A stretch of DNA of 37,734 nucleotides from a virus, in the IMG/VR virus record IMGVR_UViG_3300030060_002869, positions 1 through 37,734 of that record. One strand, written 5' to 3'. Numbering within the stretch: the first letter of the stretch is position 1; every line of letters begins with the position of its first letter. Below are positions 24,408 to 37,734 of the stretch, piece by piece. The translations under genes and the position numbers were made by a program. Under the pieces are notes generated by a model. That model was not told where the DNA came from. It saw only the letters and a program-made list of their open reading frames with translations, and made no database searches.

Positions 24408-25459
24408 TTCTCTAAAATATTTTTGGCAATAGTTTCTGCAATTTTGGCCATCATAAGTGGTGGTACAGCCCTGCCGACTCGTTCCCATTTTTGGTACAGA
24501 TTACCATGCAAAATAAAATCATCAGGAAAACTGCTGATTCGTTTTAATTCTTGAATTGTAAATAGGCGAGGTTCTGACCAATGGTATTTATCCATAGTTC
24601 CTTGTACAACAGTATTAGCAACACGAAATGGCGATTGCTTTACATGAGAAAAAAATTTATTTTGCCCAGTTAATTTCAAAGCTGCTTTATAAAATTGATC
24701 GCCGGGTTTTGTTAGTTTCCATAAACGATAAGTTTCTGTATTTGGATCAATATGTTTATATTCGTTAGATTCTTCAACACCAATAAGTGCTTCGCCTACA
24801 GAGTATTGATATGGAATTGGTTTTGGGTGTGCTGGTTCTATGTTTAAATCGTTTCTAACTCCTACAAAAATTGTTCTTTTTCTCATCTGTGGAACACCAA
24901 GCCATTGAGCATCAAGGACTTTACATTTTACGTTGTAACCACAATCACGCAGTTTAGAAAGTATACGTTTGAAATAACCTTTAGCAGTACCTTGTACAAG
25001 ACCAGCAACATTTTCTGCTACAAAAACTTTTGGTTGTAAACCATTTAATATTCGAGCATATTCAAAAAATAAATCATCAACCCTTTGGGTTGTTTCACTA
25101 TATTTTTTTTCCTTACCCCAACCAGCTTCCCTTTTACCACCAATAGAAAAAGCAGCGCAAGGGGGGCTGCCATCAAATAAATCAAGTTCGCCTTTTTTTA
25201 AGTTTATTTTATCTAAAATGTCATCTGCAGTAATTTTTCTTATATCGCTTGGGTCAAGATAACTGTTTGGGTGATTAGCTTTATAAGTTTGTCTTGCTGA
25301 TTCTATAAATTCATTTGCATATACAACTTTATATCCAGCGATACGATAACCAAGACAAGAACCACCGCAACCAGAGAATGTTGAAGCAACTTTAAACCCA
25401 TTCCATGGTGTTGCTTGTATTTCTTTCATAGAAGGTATTTTGTATTCTGGTTTAGGCAT
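24401..25459 (-). CDS. DNA (cytosine-5) methyltransferase
   Basis: Starting at ATG 25459 (AAAGG upstream, eight-base overlap with the PP-loop gene), the 352-residue protein has motif I STFSGCGGSCLGYRIAG (26-42), motif IV GSPPCAAFS with catalytic C101, motif VI ENV (150), motif VIII QMRKRTIFVGV (191-201) and motif X RVGRAVPPLMMAKIAE near the end. All catalytic motifs are intact. It should transfer methyl to C5 of cytosine in DNA. The target-recognition region is short, so the site is probably simple. It may protect phage DNA from restriction, or supply 5-methylcytosine for a further modification by its neighbours. Confidence 0.93.
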   Translation of the reverse strand: MPKPEYKIPSMKEIQATPWNGFKVASTFSGCGGSCLGYRIAGYKVVYANEFIESARQTYKANHPNSYLDPSDIRKITADDILDKINLKKGELDLFDGSPPCAAFSIGGKREAGWGKEKKYSETTQRVDDLFFEYARILNGLQPKVFVAENVAGLVQGTAKGYFKRILSKLRDCGYNVKCKVLDAQWLGVPQMRKRTIFVGVRNDLNIEPAHPKPIPYQYSVGEALIGVEESNEYKHIDPNTETYRLWKLTKPGDQFYKAALKLTGQNKFFSHVKQSPFRVANTVVQGTMDKYHWSEPRLFTIQELKRISSFPDDFILHGNLYQKWERVGRAVPPLMMAKIAETIAKNILEKC

Positions 25460-26279
25460 AGATGCCTTTTGCGATTCTGTTATAAATACCAATTGGTGAT
25501 TTTGAATTAGGTTTATACTTAGAAATTACCGCATTTCCAACTGTTTCTGCAATCTTGCTGTCACCAAGTTGTAAGTTTGTATGAGGTTTTATTTTTAAAC
25601 AATCCAATTCTGGATAATGCTTGCGTATAACTTCTTTTTGTCTTGGCTTATTAAGTTCTTTCCAATTTTTATCTATCCATAAAGAAAAAACAGAAGGATA
25701 AAAGTATGGATTACAAAGTTGTATTTGATTTAATTCACAGAGTTTCATTAATCGTTTAGTGCCAGCAGATTCTAAATTTGCAAAATAATCTTGTCTAAAT
25801 TTTTTAAATTTTAAGTCATCTTTTGAATAATGAATCATTGCTTTTTTAGAAAGTCCAAAGTGACCATCAGCAGCAACACCTGTCACAAGTGTCTCATCTT
25901 TAAATTCTTTCATTATTTTTATTAAGTAGAAAAAAGGGAAAAGACACTCTATGGCAGTTTTTTTCTTACAACCTACTTTTTTTATAAGATGTTTTACAGT
26001 CTCAACAATCTCATCTTGTTTATAAGGTAAAAAAACAGGTACAAATGTAAGGTTAAACTTATATGCAAGTTTTCTTGCTGCTTCAAAGTCAGATGAAAAT
26101 TTTTCTTTCCCAAAAGTAAATGAATATATGCGTACTTTTTTTCCTACATCAAGAGCAGATAAAACAACAGAAGAAGAATCAATACCACCAGATGTTGCAA
26201 CACAAATTTTTTTTGGTAATGGTTTTATTATTTCTTGTAAAAGAGTTCTTATATTATTTTGCTTTTCCACTCCATTCAT
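25452..26279 (-). CDS. PP-loop ATP-pyrophosphatase (asparagine synthase C-domain-like)
   Basis: With ATG 26279 the protein has 275 residues. The PP-loop ICVATSGGIDSSSVVLSALD holds SGGIDSS at residues 30-36. The segment TLVTGVAADGHFGLSKKAM corresponds to the second ATP-binding motif of asparagine synthetase-type enzymes (GDGADE-like). There is no glutaminase domain, so this is not a full asparagine synthetase. The family adenylates an acid or carbonyl group so that ammonia or sulphur can attack. It sits between ParB-like and C5-methyltransferase genes, overlapping both, which suggests a shared nucleic acid or nucleotide modification path. Substrate unknown. Confidence 0.8.
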   Translation of the reverse strand: MNGVEKQNNIRTLLQEIIKPLPKKICVATSGGIDSSSVVLSALDVGKKVRIYSFTFGKEKFSSDFEAARKLAYKFNLTFVPVFLPYKQDEIVETVKHLIKKVGCKKKTAIECLFPFFYLIKIMKEFKDETLVTGVAADGHFGLSKKAMIHYSKDDLKFKKFRQDYFANLESAGTKRLMKLCELNQIQLCNPYFYPSVFSLWIDKNWKELNKPRQKEVIRKHYPELDCLKIKPHTNLQLGDSKIAETVGNAVISKYKPNSKSPIGIYNRIAKGIYA

Positions 26280-26757
26280 ACCCACAAGAAGGACATCTGT
26301 GTTCTGTTTCTAAATCTTCATCAACATCTTTAAAATCTTCGGGTGCTTCTGCATCTGTCCTATCGTCCATTAATTCTGTTAAATCTTCTGGTTCAAACCA
26401 TGGGTCAATCTCATGTTCCATTGATAAGTGATGAAGCATTGAAGCATCCCAATCGGACAAGTCAGATGTTCTGTTATCTGCAAGAGCAAGACCAACTTTC
26501 TGATCTTCTGTAAGTCCAGTACGTTTTATTGCAATTATCTCTTTGCCATCTGATTCAATAACACGAACATTTTCTAAGCCAGCAGCTTTTGCACCTTCTA
26601 CAGTTCCATTGCCAGCCAATATACGGCCATCTTCGTCAATAACTATTGATCTTGCTGCACCATATCTTTCTAATGATTCTTGTATTAAAGACGCAGAACG
26701 GTCTGTTCTTTTTCTAGCGTTTTTATGGTCAGACTTAAGTTCGTTAATTTTTGTCAT
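26254..26757 (-). CDS. ParB/sulfiredoxin-like domain protein with CPxCG tail
   Basis: The 167-residue product has ARKRTDRSASLIQESLERYG, then GRILAGNGTVEGAKAAG (44-60) and LTEDQKVGLALADNRTSDLS followed by DWD. These are hallmarks of phage ParB-like proteins. The last residues read EHRCPSCGYEWSGKAK, a half zinc ribbon with only two Cys. ParB-like proteins often pair with PP-loop enzymes (the IbrA/IbrB pair is one example). The 3' end overlaps the PP-loop gene by 26 bases. Possible roles are DNA nicking or CTP-dependent DNA binding. Confidence 0.88.
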   Translation of the reverse strand: MTKINELKSDHKNARKRTDRSASLIQESLERYGAARSIVIDEDGRILAGNGTVEGAKAAGLENVRVIESDGKEIIAIKRTGLTEDQKVGLALADNRTSDLSDWDASMLHHLSMEHEIDPWFEPEDLTELMDDRTDAEAPEDFKDVDEDLETEHRCPSCGYEWSGKAK

Positions 26758-28648: not shown

Positions 28649-28674
28649 AAAAAAAAGCTGCCCTGTAAAGGGCA
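28649..28674 (-). terminator. Rho-independent terminator, leftward
   Basis: On the minus strand, a six-base-pair stem TGCCCT/AGGGCA with a four-base loop (28659-28674) is followed two bases on by eight T (28649-28656). It ends the two-gene leftward unit 28693-29130. It stands between that unit and the O-like gene. Confidence 0.8.
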
Positions 28675-28692
28675 ACTAATAAGAGAAAGTCT

Positions 28693-28971
28693 TTAGGCTT
28701 TTTTCTTGTTTATACCATCGTGTTCTGCAAAAAGTTTCTTTTCTAGTGGTTCTATAGTGTCGCTGTCTAGAATTTCTAAGTTTAGACCCATAGTATAAGT
28801 GCCATCTTTAAGACACTCTATATAACCACCTCGGTTGTAAACTCTTACAAAAACTGCTCTTTTATCAATACTGTAGATACCGTATTGTTCGGCTAGTTGT
28901 TCGCCTTTTCCTTCTGTATAAGGAACATCGATGTAATCGTTCTTCCAAGTTTCAAAGCTAATAGTTGTCAC
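28693..28971 (-). CDS. Hypothetical early protein (92 aa)
   Basis: It starts with GTG at 28971, directly after the stop of the 52-aa gene. The product (MTTISFETWKNDYIDVPYTE...) is acidic with a beta-rich centre (YSIDKRAVFVRVYNRGGYIE) and a lysine-rich end. It shows no known motif. The terminator lies 18 bases after the stop. It belongs to a small unit under a hairpin-leader promoter, so it is probably an early function, perhaps regulatory. Confidence 0.7.
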   Translation of the reverse strand: MTTISFETWKNDYIDVPYTEGKGEQLAEQYGIYSIDKRAVFVRVYNRGGYIECLKDGTYTMGLNLEILDSDTIEPLEKKLFAEHDGINKKKA

Positions 28972-29130
28972 TTACTTAACCTCCTCTACGTTGTATTTGC
29001 CAACTAAGAATTGCTGACCTTCTTTATTAGCTACTGTCCAGATTGTTCTTGTCTTTTTAAGAACTATAACTGGAACATCTAACTTGCCAATGTAAGTCAT
29101 GTTGTGTGTTGCTTGAAATTTAGTTTTCAT
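28972..29130 (-). CDS. Hypothetical early protein (52 aa)
   Basis: ATG 29130 opens MKTKFQATHNMTYIGKLDVP, then VIVLKKTRTIWTVANKEGQQ and FLVGKYNVEEVK. The pattern of short beta strands suggests a compact SH3-like fold. Preceded by promoter/leader copy A: ATG follows the leader hairpin by 17 bases. The upstream GTTTAA shows no Shine-Dalgarno sequence. First gene of a two-gene leftward unit. Confidence 0.7.
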   Translation of the reverse strand: MKTKFQATHNMTYIGKLDVPVIVLKKTRTIWTVANKEGQQFLVGKYNVEEVK

Positions 29131-29147
29131 TTAAACCTTGGGGTTGT

Positions 29148-29174
29148 GGGATCTCTCCCTATATCTCAATTATA
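29148..29174 (-). promoter_or_regulatory. Promoter and hairpin leader, copy A (leftward)
   Basis: On the minus strand TATAAT (29169-29174) is followed by nine bases TGAGATATA and then a hairpin GGGA-GAGA-TCCC (29148-29159). Seventeen bases later comes ATG 29130. The transcript probably starts a few bases before the hairpin, so the mRNA would carry it at its 5' end. Same arrangement as copies B and C. No conserved -35 box. Confidence 0.75.
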
Positions 29175-29203
29175 ATCTAAGTTTCCCTAATATCTACCAT
29201 AAG

Positions 29204-29227
29204 TACACCAGTTCATAAACCGAACAT
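29204..29227. promoter_or_regulatory. Conserved upstream box between divergent early promoters
   Basis: TACACCA, six variable bases, then AAACCGAACAT. The box is 29 bases from the -10 of leftward promoter A and 29 from that of rightward promoter B. A second copy is at 30480-30503, 30 bases before promoter C. Likely a binding site for an activator or repressor; the protein is not identified. Confidence 0.7.
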
Positions 29228-29256
29228 TTTTACTGTACATACACTTTAGGGAGAGT

Positions 29257-29285
29257 TATAGTGGATATATAGAGCAGAGATGCTC
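29257..29285 (+). promoter_or_regulatory. Promoter and hairpin leader, copy B (rightward)
   Basis: TATAGT (29257-29262), nine bases GGATATATA, then a hairpin GAGCA-GAGA-TGCTC (29272-29285). ATG 29302 follows after 16 bases that begin CCAACCTC. The stem sequence differs from copies A and C but pairs perfectly. Confidence 0.75.
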
Positions 29286-29301
29286 CCAACCTCAAAAAAC
29301 T

Positions 29302-29490
29302 ATGGCAAAACGCTACATGACCAAAGCAGAAGCAGTTATCTGTTTTAGACAGCTTTGGAATCTTAACCCAGTATGGGAAAGAAAAGACAAAGTTGCAAAA
29401 AGAGAATCTTGGAACAACTTTACAGACTCACTGTGTAAAAGTGACAACATTTCTTTAAAGCAATATGAAAGTTGGGATAATCCTTACTAA
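29302..29490 (+). CDS. Small conserved phage protein (62 aa, WNNFTDSLCK motif)
   Basis: The product starts MAKRYMTKAEAVICFRQLWN and has KRESWNNFTDSLCKSDNISL then KQYESWDNP. This pattern (MTKAEA...WNNxTDxLCK...QYxxWxNP) is recurrent in marine phages as I recall, of unknown role. First gene after promoter B; its ATG lies 16 bases from the leader hairpin without a Shine-Dalgarno sequence. The stop overlaps the next start (TAATG). Confidence 0.75.
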   Translation: MAKRYMTKAEAVICFRQLWNLNPVWERKDKVAKRESWNNFTDSLCKSDNISLKQYESWDNPY

Positions 29491-29636
29491 TGACAGAAAA
29501 AGAATTTAAAGAAGCACTTGCCAGATTACATGACCGTTATCTATTTGAAAGCCAGATGACTTCTGAAAACTACCTACGACAAGAAAAAGCTATTCAAACA
29601 GCATACTTAAACACCCTTTATAAAAAAGTAAAATGA
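29490..29636 (+). CDS. Small helical protein (48 aa)
   Basis: It starts at ATG 29490 within TAATG and ends in an ATGA overlap with the DUF2958 gene. The product MTEKEFKEALARLHDRYLFE continues as a charged helix. No known motif. Both couplings support translation. Confidence 0.65.
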   Translation: MTEKEFKEALARLHDRYLFESQMTSENYLRQEKAIQTAYLNTLYKKVK

Positions 29637-29959
29637 AACTACTTACAAAAGAAATCCTTAAAAAACTTCCAAAGCTTTACAGCCAACCAGCACATGATGA
29701 CCTTTCACAAGAAATGGTCTTTTATGTAAAGCTATTTACACCCGACAGCAACTGGACTTGGTTTATCGCTGAATACGACCCAAAGACAGAAATTGCTTGG
29801 GGTTTGGTAAAAGGCCACGAACAAGAATTTGGTTCTTTCGATATGAAAGAAATTAAAGAACTTAGAGGTCCTTTTGGCTTACCAGTAGAAAGAGACATCT
29901 GCTTTGACCCTATAAAAGAAAAAGAACTTTTATTGAAAATTTCTAACGGTACAGATTAA
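29633..29959 (+). CDS. DUF2958 family protein
   Basis: The 108-residue product shows the family pattern: LLTKEILKKLPKLYSQ, then VFYVKLFTPDSNWTWFIAEY, WGLVKGHEQEFGSFDMKEIK and LRGPFGLPVERDICFDP. DUF2958 proteins are widespread on phages and plasmids; function unsettled. Its ATG overlaps the 48-aa gene stop and its TAA is directly followed by the HNH start. Confidence 0.9.
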   Translation: MKLLTKEILKKLPKLYSQPAHDDLSQEMVFYVKLFTPDSNWTWFIAEYDPKTEIAWGLVKGHEQEFGSFDMKEIKELRGPFGLPVERDICFDPIKEKELLLKISNGTD

Positions 29960-30475
29960 ATGTACTGTAAGGCAAAAAAACTGCCACCATTTGATGTTGT
30001 AAATAAACTTCTCACTTACAACATCTTAACTGGTGTATTTAATTGGAAAATTAACAAAGCAAATAAAAAAGCTGGTTCAAAAGCGGGCTATTTAAAAAAA
30101 ACTGGTTACATTTATATTTCAATTAATAAACAAGAATGTGCAGCACATAGAGTTGCTTGGTTATTAGTTACAAAAAAAGATCCTTGGCCTTTTGAAATTG
30201 ACCACATAAACCATAACAAAAGTGATAATGCTTTTAAAAATTTAAGAAAAGCAACTATACAACAAAATAGCTCTAACAGATTAAAAGGTATTAATAACAC
30301 CTCTGGCCATAAATCAATTACATATCTAAGTCATCAAACTTTAAATCCATATGTAGTTTGCATACATCAACAAAATAAAAGTCATTATGTTGGTTCATTT
30401 TCTACATTAGAAATGGCAATAAAAGCTAGAGACAAAAAAGGTAAAGAGTTGTATGGAAAATTTTATAACCCTTAA
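29960..30475 (+). CDS. HNH homing-type endonuclease with AP2-like C-terminus
   Basis: In this 171-residue protein the HNH core is H63 in CAAHRVAWLL, D81-H82 in EIDHINHNKSDN, and N94 in FKNLRKAT. The C-terminal part (SITYLSHQTLNPYVVCIHQQ, then HYVGSFSTLEMAIKARD) matches AP2-type DNA-binding tails of free-standing homing nucleases. It abuts the DUF2958 stop and precedes the control region of promoter C, so it may have inserted between two early units. It probably nicks or cuts DNA and spreads by homing. Confidence 0.9.
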   Translation: MYCKAKKLPPFDVVNKLLTYNILTGVFNWKINKANKKAGSKAGYLKKTGYIYISINKQECAAHRVAWLLVTKKDPWPFEIDHINHNKSDNAFKNLRKATIQQNSSNRLKGINNTSGHKSITYLSHQTLNPYVVCIHQQNKSHYVGSFSTLEMAIKARDKKGKELYGKFYNP

Positions 30476-30479
30476 ATGT

Positions 30480-30503
30480 TACACCAATAAACAAACCGAA
30501 CAT
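30480..30503 (+). promoter_or_regulatory. Conserved upstream box, copy 2
   Basis: The same element as 29204-29227: TACACCA, six different bases, AAACCGAACAT. It lies 30 bases before the -10 box of promoter C and begins just after the HNH gene. The fixed spacing argues for function. Confidence 0.7.
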
Positions 30504-30533
30504 GGAAGGGTAGCCAATAGGGAAAACCCTGTC

Positions 30534-30560
30534 TATAATTGAAGTATAGGGCGAGAGCCT
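30534..30560 (+). promoter_or_regulatory. Promoter and hairpin leader, copy C (rightward)
   Basis: TATAAT (30534-30539), nine bases TGAAGTATA, then a hairpin GGGC-GAGA-GCCT (30549-30560; the outer pair is G-T). ATG 30577 follows after 16 bases starting ACAACCCCC. Just upstream AGGGAAAACCCT makes a second small inverted repeat. It should drive the recombination operon. Confidence 0.75.
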
Positions 30561-30576
30561 ACAACCCCCAAAAAAA

Positions 30577-30756
30577 ATGGTAGATCAACTACAACAAGAG
30601 ATAGACCAAGTAAAGGTCAAATTCCAAGAAGCACAAAACGGCTACGCTTTCTGTTGTGCCACTGGCGATTTTACAGAGCTAAGCAAGCACAAAAAAAATG
30701 TTGCTAAATACAGAAAGCAACTTTCATTCTTACTAAGACAGAGGGCAAACGCATGA
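30577..30756 (+). CDS. Small early protein (59 aa)
   Basis: The product MVDQLQQEIDQVKVKFQEAQ is a charged helix, followed by NGYAFCCATGDFTELSKHKK and a basic end. Adjacent Cys 26-27 are notable. It is the first gene after leader C; ATGA overlap with the next gene. No family recognised. Confidence 0.65.
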   Translation: MVDQLQQEIDQVKVKFQEAQNGYAFCCATGDFTELSKHKKNVAKYRKQLSFLLRQRANA

Positions 30757-34466: not shown

Positions 34467-34760
34467 ATGAGTAAACACCACCCAAAATCAGCACTAAAGC
34501 TAAAAAAACTAAAAGAAAATCGACTTAAAGAATTAGAAAAAAAACTTTTAGATATTACATTAAAAGGTCAGGATCATTATGTTTTTATTGATGAAAATAA
34601 TAAAGCACAACTGGTAAACAAAGATGGAAAATGGATTAATGAAAATATTAGAAAAGCAATTACAGAATATAATTATTTTGTTGATAAAACAAAAAAAATG
34701 ATGATAAGAGACTTTAAAAAAGAAGAATTAGAGGCATACTGTAAACAATATGAAAATTAA
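34467..34760 (+). CDS. Hypothetical lysine-rich protein (97 aa)
   Basis: The product begins MSKHHPKSALKLKKLKENRL; a basic helix is followed by KGQDHYVFIDENNKAQLVNK, a beta hairpin-like segment, and another helix (KEELEAYCKQYEN). Two bases separate it from the gene before. Not recognised. Confidence 0.68.
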   Translation: MSKHHPKSALKLKKLKENRLKELEKKLLDITLKGQDHYVFIDENNKAQLVNKDGKWINENIRKAITEYNYFVDKTKKMMIRDFKKEELEAYCKQYEN

Positions 34761-37196: not shown

Positions 37197-37734
37197 ATTT
37201 GTCTTTTTTCTTTGTCAGTTTTTTTACGATCTGCTTCACAATGGGTTTGACTGCATTAAGTAATAATGGAGTACTGGCAGCAACCAAGCCAATAACAGCA
37301 GTAGATACAATAGTAGAAACTTCTGGAATGTACTGATCTTTGAAGGGAACGTCTTCATAAATCGTGGTGCATATAGTTCCATCTTCGCTTCTTTCATGGC
37401 CTACGACACGTTCCAACCGCTTTTCGTTACGAAAATCTCCTACTCTTTGATCTGTTCTGCCAGGGCAATCTACAAAAACTTCTTCTTTTTTATCTTTTGG
37501 TAGTTCTGGTTGTGGTGGTTTACCTTCGGGTAACTTAGCTGGTTCGTCATTTACAACAGCAGCCTCTTCAACAATAATCAGTTGATCTGCCTGATAATTC
37601 ATCGGTATAAAAGACGGATATGGACAGTTACTTACAACTCCGTTTGGGTCTTCTATCAATAAATTTCTATTTCCAGTATTCTTAACATCTCTATGAAAGT
37701 ATTTACAACCTATAGTCTCTACATTTAAAGGTTC
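37189..37734 (-). CDS. Proline-rich phage accessory protein, copy 2 (5' end cut by window)
   Basis: An open frame from the window end to the stop at 37189, 181 residues. It matches copy 1: CKYFHRD, NTGNRN, EDPNGV, a Pro/Lys/Glu-rich middle (KLPEGKPPQPELPKDKKEE), CPGRTDQRVGDFRNEKRLER, and the same hydrophobic STAVIGLVAASTPLLLN. It ends AVKPIVKQIVKKLTKKKDKS plus one Thr, a basic tail that copy 1 lacks because of the window edge. About 30 N-terminal residues are missing by comparison. Function unknown; virion or membrane-associated role possible. Confidence 0.75.
   Translation of the reverse strand, partial: EPLNVETIGCKYFHRDVKNTGNRNLLIEDPNGVVSNCPYPSFIPMNYQADQLIIVEEAAVVNDEPAKLPEGKPPQPELPKDKKEEVFVDCPGRTDQRVGDFRNEKRLERVVGHERSEDGTICTTIYEDVPFKDQYIPEVSTIVSTAVIGLVAASTPLLLNAVKPIVKQIVKKLTKKKDKST
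37252..37344. repeat. 93-bp exact repeat, copy 2
   Basis: Identical to bases 1-93 in the same orientation; it codes for the hydrophobic segment of both paralogues. Flanking sequence is only related. Confidence 0.9.

Follow-up and report, generated by a model that had tools for sequence, protein, structure and literature searches.

Three early promoters of a marine phage are each followed by a small hairpin with the same GAGA loop and a different stem, and the question raised by this locus is whether the hairpin is an RNA structure kept by selection and what it might do at the head of an early message. The stretch analysed is a 37,734-bp siphophage record in IMG/VR (called the window at its full length), kin of the Synechococcus and Prochlorococcus phages KBS-S-2A, S-H1, and MED4-184. 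Compared with these phages (KBS-S-2A and S-H1 of Synechococcus, MED4-184 of Prochlorococcus), its capsid protein shows 68–78% identity and its terminase ~55%; because of these identities, the host is likely to be a picocyanobacterium, which is inferred only via the related isolates and is not shown. The structural genes run leftward, and the early region (~28.6–34.8 kb) is composed of divergent small genes together with genes for exonuclease VIII and an Erf-like annealing protein. Elsewhere in the record, we noticed a protein (25452–26285, minus strand) with a match to the Asn_synthase domain (PF00733, E 6.6e-10) and a weaker match to QueC. Also, a 40-base stretch near the start of the record (~30–70, CAACCAAGCCAATAACAGCAG...) has an identical copy near the end (37281–37320), around which diverged similarity is seen, possibly reflecting a duplicated gene or terminal redundancy.

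Three promoter-hairpin units in the early region

An initial annotation had described three units, one leftward (A) and two rightward (B and C), in which a TATAAT or TATAGT hexamer is followed by exactly nine bases ending in TATA, a GAGA-looped hairpin, a short linker, and ATG. All three were found as described, and their features are as follows.

29182–29198, minus strand: unit A upstream promoter element GGTAGATATTAGGGAAA, with the GGTA...GGGAA signature also seen upstream of in-family copies
29169–29174, minus strand: unit A -10 hexamer TATAAT (sequence, pattern search)
29148–29159, minus strand: unit A 5' hairpin GGGA[GAGA]TCCC (pattern search, fold, model R1)
29131–29147, minus strand: unit A linker ACAACCCCAAGGTTTAA with the ACAACCCC box, 17 nt, then ATG at 29130
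28972–29130, minus strand: A operon gene 1, the first after unit A, 52 aa, unknown
28693–28971, minus strand: A operon gene 2, 92 aa, without Pfam/PHROG match
28656–28677, minus strand: intrinsic-terminator-like site (9 pairs, then a T-run) closing the short A operon
29220–29254, plus strand: unit B upstream element, with CCGAACA (29220–29226), GTACAT (29235–29240), and GGGAGA (29249–29254)
29257–29262, plus strand: unit B -10 hexamer TATAGT (sequence, pattern search)
29272–29285, plus strand: unit B 5' hairpin GAGCA[GAGA]TGCTC (pattern search, fold, model search)
29286–29301, plus strand: unit B linker CCAACCTCAAAAAACT, 16 nt, then ATG at 29302
29302–29490, plus strand: B operon gene 1, 62 aa, PHROG 336, widespread in cyanophages and of unknown function
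30496–30526, plus strand: unit C upstream element, with CCGAACA (30496–30502), GGTAGC (30509–30514), and GGGAAAA (30520–30526)
30534–30539, plus strand: unit C -10 hexamer TATAAT (sequence, pattern search)
30549–30560, plus strand: unit C 5' hairpin GGGC[GAGA]GCCT, outer pair G-U (pattern search, fold, model search)
30561–30576, plus strand: unit C linker ACAACCCCCAAAAAAA, 16 nt, then ATG at 30577
30577–30756, plus strand: C operon gene 1, 59 aa, at the head of the recombination operon with exonuclease VIII and Erf

Between the -10 hexamer and the hairpin lie TGAGATATA in unit A (after TATAAT), GGATATATA in unit B (after TATAGT), and TGAAGTATA in unit C (after TATAAT), but the claim of exactly nine bases ending in TATA held only within the window; in the relatives, 4–10 bases are found there and TATA is not conserved. 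The paired stem claimed for unit C (GGGC/GCCT) held with the correction that its outermost pair is G-U, and the absence of a Shine-Dalgarno sequence between the hairpin and ATG held for most copies (40/47), the exception being A-type leaders with AAGG or GAGG. No other GAGA hairpin after a -10 was found in the window by pattern search (two forward, one reverse, and 0 in the control). An HNH endonuclease gene (29960–30475, plus strand) is situated between units B and C and begins directly where the gene before it stops.

The hairpin was included in the minimum free energy structure of 7/7 leaders folded, with a total of -4.4 to -14.6 kcal/mol, and that of unit A scores 25.8 bits with model R1, of which the unit A copy is itself a part. 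In single-sequence folding of the three window leaders, however, z was only about -0.8 to -1.8 for the stem alone; given these modest z-scores, our case is built on comparison and not on folding energy.

Constant loop and covarying stems among relatives

Leaders were collected from loci encoding relatives of exonuclease VIII and by two pattern scans, and two further searches widened the census of clades; the contigs of the relatives are fragments, and no expression data exist here. In the IMG/VR relatives, we found 164 leaders of this build, corresponding to 91 distinct leader-gene pairs and 32 unrelated families of downstream proteins. The first pattern scan, which used the build of the window itself, gave 29 matches, only four of which were genuine, the remainder being unpaired.

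In clade I, the cassette upstream of the hairpin reads CCGAACA, ~7 nt, GGTA(C/G), ~6 nt, GGGAA, 8–9 nt, and TATAAT, followed by 7–10 nt, the hairpin, ACAACC(C/T)C, and ATG. The stems of this clade include GGGA/TCCC, GAGCA/TGCTC, GGGCA/TGCTC, GGGCA/TGCCC, GGGC/GTCC, and GGGC/GCCC, and further AGGC/GCCT, GGCA/TGCC, GGGCAA/TTGTCC, and GGGTAA/TTACCC. Clades II and III, with exonuclease VIII ~55–61% identical to that of the window, differ from clade I in both promoters and stems (GAGGA/TCCTT, GCCC/GGGC, GTGAGA/TCTCAC, TGGGA/TCCCG, AGTCA/TGACT, and GCCA/TGGC); a five-base loop variant, GGCA[GAGAT]TGCC, is also among their leaders, as a GAGAU pentaloop in clade III. The distance from the stem to ATG in the relatives is 14–27 nt (usually 16–18 nt), and the linker varies by clade (ACAACCCC, ACCTCG, or CCTTGC). 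In three leftward leaders (L079, L083, and L086), we noticed that GGGAGAAGATTCC could give a five-base GAAGA loop like that of lambda boxB in place of GAGA.

The stems covary. The covariation score of 24 distinct leaders (set A3) was 0.621 as against 0.212 +/- 0.037 in the shuffled sets (0/500) and fell to 0.03–0.12 when the partner was slid; in the same set, both sides were changed in all six pair columns. The covariation count of another set (A5) is not relied on, since this set includes distant leaders that were chosen for pairing. Stems before orthologous genes differ (e.g., GGGC/GTCC, GCCC/GGGC, and AGTCA/TGACT), and six different paired stems are found upstream of a single ortholog family (MKNFFLYL). 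Furthermore, two loci with near-identical promoters and genes carry GCCA/TGGC (L088) and GGCA/TGCC (L089), namely a compensatory flip from C-G to G-C with the surrounding sequence matching.

Would chance or inheritance, with three similar promoters copied inside one phage, suffice to explain the pattern? The classes A–E within clade I are indeed clearly related cassettes, which speaks for such an origin. Against it are the unrelated stems before orthologous genes, the flip between L088 and L089, and the enrichment in clades II and III, whose promoters differ greatly; the scans not conditioned on pairing also contradict this explanation, which we regard as all but excluded.

In one of those scans, all viral contigs were searched for the upstream promoter signature alone, with no requirement for the hairpin, and 37 distinct sites were obtained (32 in-family and 5 unrelated). 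A GAGA loop flanked by four or more pairs was present at 32/32 of the in-family distinct sites and 0/5 of the unrelated viral sites. When the signature was searched in 84,980 species genomes, the hairpin was found at 0/47 distinct sites, and the matches were chance-like; occurrence of the module in hosts or prophages is rejected, as the signature matches in those genomes were all without the hairpin. In a second approach, every tetranucleotide that follows a strong -10 by 9–15 nt and lies upstream of an open reading frame with an ATG start was counted. A stem was found to flank GAGA at 38/50 sites in near relatives, compared with 11/2183 for all other tetranucleotides, and at 13/32 sites in distant relatives, compared with 19/3032 (Fisher p 1e-61 and 3e-19, respectively, which are indicative only because the sites are related by descent). 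Other GNRA loops had a flanking stem at 0/70 sites in the near and 1/104 in the distant relatives.

It may also be argued that a phage regulator uses the palindrome as a DNA operator that would overlap the transcription start. In favor of this idea, an inverted repeat lies at a promoter in a divergently transcribed region, and the upstream boxes (CCGAACA, GGTA, and GGGGAA) show that protein sites exist nearby. An operator would, however, conserve its half-sites, while here the pairing is conserved and the stem sequence is not at all; conservation is found in the loop, which is not palindromic, and wobble on the sense strand is G-T and never A-C. Indeed, the eight distinct inner stems from the signature scan contain 29 Watson-Crick pairs, 3 G-U pairs, and 0 A-C or other pairs. 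Wobble confined to G-U on the sense strand points to selection on the sense-strand RNA rather than on DNA, and we consider the operator very unlikely.

The initial annotation had proposed that selection maintains an RNA structure here, in which a GAGA loop of the GNRA type is constant and the stems covary, and had stated that loss of pairing in the leaders of related phages would refute it. The pairing is kept in those leaders, so that the refutation fails and the proposal is supported. Comparison, therefore, shows the hairpin, its pairing, the invariance of its loop, and its coupling to the promoter irrespective of the downstream gene. Unrelated genes are found behind one hairpin class, and different classes occur ahead of one gene family (32 protein families in total); by the same comparison, the module belongs to the promoter and not to the gene.

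The module also marks slots of small, exchangeable early genes. One cassette precedes many different small genes in the leftward slots of L004, L007, L013, L021, L035, L041, L045, L046, and L048, and five gene families, for example, lie behind the GGGCAA class. These leftward slots are apparent hot spots of gene exchange, and it is possible that takeover or anti-defence genes are among their contents. No such leaders were found in the isolates KBS-S-2A, S-H1, S-CBS1, MED4-184, and MED4-117; two model matches in S-H1 were discarded as GC-rich, apparently coding DNA. A single leader, GTAG[GAGA]CTAC, in a more distant relative (L108, <50%) was not accepted either, since chance is possible at that rate.

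Inferred position at the transcript start and possible functions

The transcription start was placed seven bases past the -10 and is hence inferred, not mapped. Clade III has canonical promoters, in which at least 5/6 bases of TTGACA are matched in 14/17 cases at 17 nt from TAATAT, and the first stem base falls at -1 to 2 nt relative to the inferred start (mode 0); the corresponding figure for clade I is mostly 1–4 nt after that start. With the exception of one site, the loop is always 9–14 nt past the -10. Judging from this promoter geometry, with no transcript data, transcription is inferred to start at or near the base of the stem, making the hairpin the 5'-terminal RNA. As for the promoters themselves, CCGAACA, GGTA(C/G), and GGGGAA stand in for the -35 in clade I, whereas clade III has an ordinary TTGACA; the boxes of clade I may be a site for an activator or a variant sigma factor.

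The initial annotation had offered three functions (protection of the 5' end, control of translation, and boxB-like protein binding). None of these is singled out by our results, but the placement at the 5' end suits protection best. RppH and RNase E require single-stranded 5' termini, and 5' structure stabilises mRNA (PMC3997798); in Prochlorococcus MED4, furthermore, RNase E is increased by a MarR-type factor of a cyanophage, and phage transcripts are reportedly shielded by antisense RNA (PMC9692554). We place first, because the strict 5' position favors an effect on the 5' end, the idea that the hairpin shields early mRNA from decay by host RppH and RNase E, while admitting that this function is inferred without measured half-lives and that it could more readily turn out wrong than right. 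Each unit would then be an early promoter of the host RNA polymerase with a TATAAT-type -10, from which the transcript would open with 0–4 unpaired bases, a stem of 4–9 bp with free sequence, and the invariant GAGA loop, followed by an unstructured C/A-rich linker of ~17 nt and the start codon. Such a cap-like hairpin would withhold the unpaired 5' terminus that both RppH and RNase E need, allowing early phage messages with short leaders to persist in a host with RNase E levels that can rise during infection. The loop would probably be kept constant by a host or phage protein that also binds it.

Several observations weigh against protection. Stems of 4 bp are weak protectors (about -4 to -8 kcal/mol in most leaders), up to four unpaired bases are predicted in clade I leaders, and the related isolates without the module indicate that the device is not general. 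Also, pure stabilisation would take any loop, but GAAA, GCAA, UUCG, and others are never used; a loop that never changes calls for a loop-binding factor, and stability alone is insufficient. A bolder reading is possible, in which the very start of the message carries a sequence-read "cap," the GAGA loop being recognised there by a dedicated phage or host protein. If this were true, phage messages would be marked for survival, preferential translation, or processive transcription with their stems drifting freely, and the hairpin would represent a phage RNA signal of a new class, separate from the lambda nut family.

The main rival, which remains possible, is a recognition site in nascent RNA like boxB or put, where RNA polymerase itself, or a protein of the phage or the host, would bind the GAGA loop and alter early transcription (e.g., passage through terminators). 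A constant loop on varying stems suits recognition of the loop, and the hairpin heads both leftward and rightward early operons, with a terminator after the short A operon. HK022 putL is likewise located just downstream of PL (PMC9378689), and pentaloops (GAGAU and possibly GAAGA) are seen in clade III. Nonetheless, no boxA was seen, and with the hairpin at the predicted 5' end, a boxA on its 5' side cannot be in the transcript; antitermination sites do not require a distance from the -10 nearly as strict as the one seen here. No arginine-rich protein like N was recognised, the early proteins having no relevant Pfam/PHROG match, and no gene tracking the hairpin perfectly across the relatives was found. 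A lysine-rich early protein of 97 aa (34467–34760, plus strand) was rejected as a hairpin-tracking factor, as it is absent from clade II contigs having the hairpin. This protein occurs in many hairpin-bearing relatives but not in the cultured isolates examined and is a candidate nucleic-acid binder.

Translational control, in which a loop-bound protein or the hairpin itself would govern how readily ribosomes reach the nearby start codon, appears unlikely. It would fit the short leaders, mostly without Shine-Dalgarno sequences, and the C/A-rich unstructured linker of fairly constant length. The start codon is, however, not covered by the hairpin in the folds; the linker differs among the clades, with 14–27 nt from the stem to ATG, and one cassette is placed ahead of 32 unrelated gene families. 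Two further ideas on the linker were rejected: a pseudoknot pairing GAG of the loop with CUC of the linker does not hold in the ACAACCCC leaders, and pairing of a CCTTG-type linker box with 16S rRNA is only partial and not general.

Comparison with known systems

No Rfam family matched the window at or above the curated threshold, and no description of the module was found in the open-access literature searched, which is weak evidence because most subscription papers were outside the search. Within these limits, the results agree with the initial annotation, which knew of no description of the module, and the GAGA 5' hairpin is likely an RNA signal not yet reported in marine phages kin to picocyanobacterial phages. 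It is a compact element for which selection shows from sequence alone in the invariant loop, the strongly covarying stems, and the tie to the 5' end, and it occurs in phages related to picocyanobacterial ones, whose post-transcriptional control during infection is poorly known. A testable question is thereby raised, namely whether a loop-specific 5' hairpin can act as a cap in bacteria.

Messages of phage T7 can begin in a hairpin, and T7 class III leaders start with TATAGGGAGA, as unit A also reads. This likeness of unit A to a T7 promoter was rejected as a coincidence, since TATA/GGG is not conserved in the relatives, the bacterial -10 is conserved, and the promoter differs. The PeSL of T4-type phages is reportedly a composite promoter-terminator motif (Arbiol 2010 and Comeau 2014, as cited in PMC4503421), and its cassettes are similar to the present ones in that a small promoter and a stem-loop are repeated between exchangeable early genes. 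The stem-loop of PeSL is described as a terminator, however, whereas the GAGA stem-loop is downstream of the promoter, inside the leader, and without a T-run.

HK022 putL RNA (PMC9378689) is also a structured RNA directly after an early promoter, but put spans ~70 nt with two long stem-loops, while the GAGA module is one hairpin of 12–22 nt with ATG after 14–27 nt. The lambdoid boxB/nut hairpin, bound by N, is likewise small, with a GNRA-type loop (a fold inferred from sequence in our case), and is found in early leaders on both strands; the GAGA module differs in being mostly a tetraloop instead of a pentaloop, in starting from ~+1 with no boxA upstream, and in the lack of a recognised N-like protein. 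The stabilising 5'-terminal stem-loops of ompA and papA (Emory/Bouvet/Belasco, PMC3997798) similarly consist of a hairpin placed at the very start of the message, with few unpaired bases and whichever gene comes next. In these, a free loop is expected, whereas GAGA is invariant over many unrelated stems; the stem of the module is short, it forms a repeated family on phage early promoters, and its stabilising effect is only inferred. In its presumed working, the GAGA module resembles the 5' stem-loops or the boxB hairpins, while it meets the full definition of neither.
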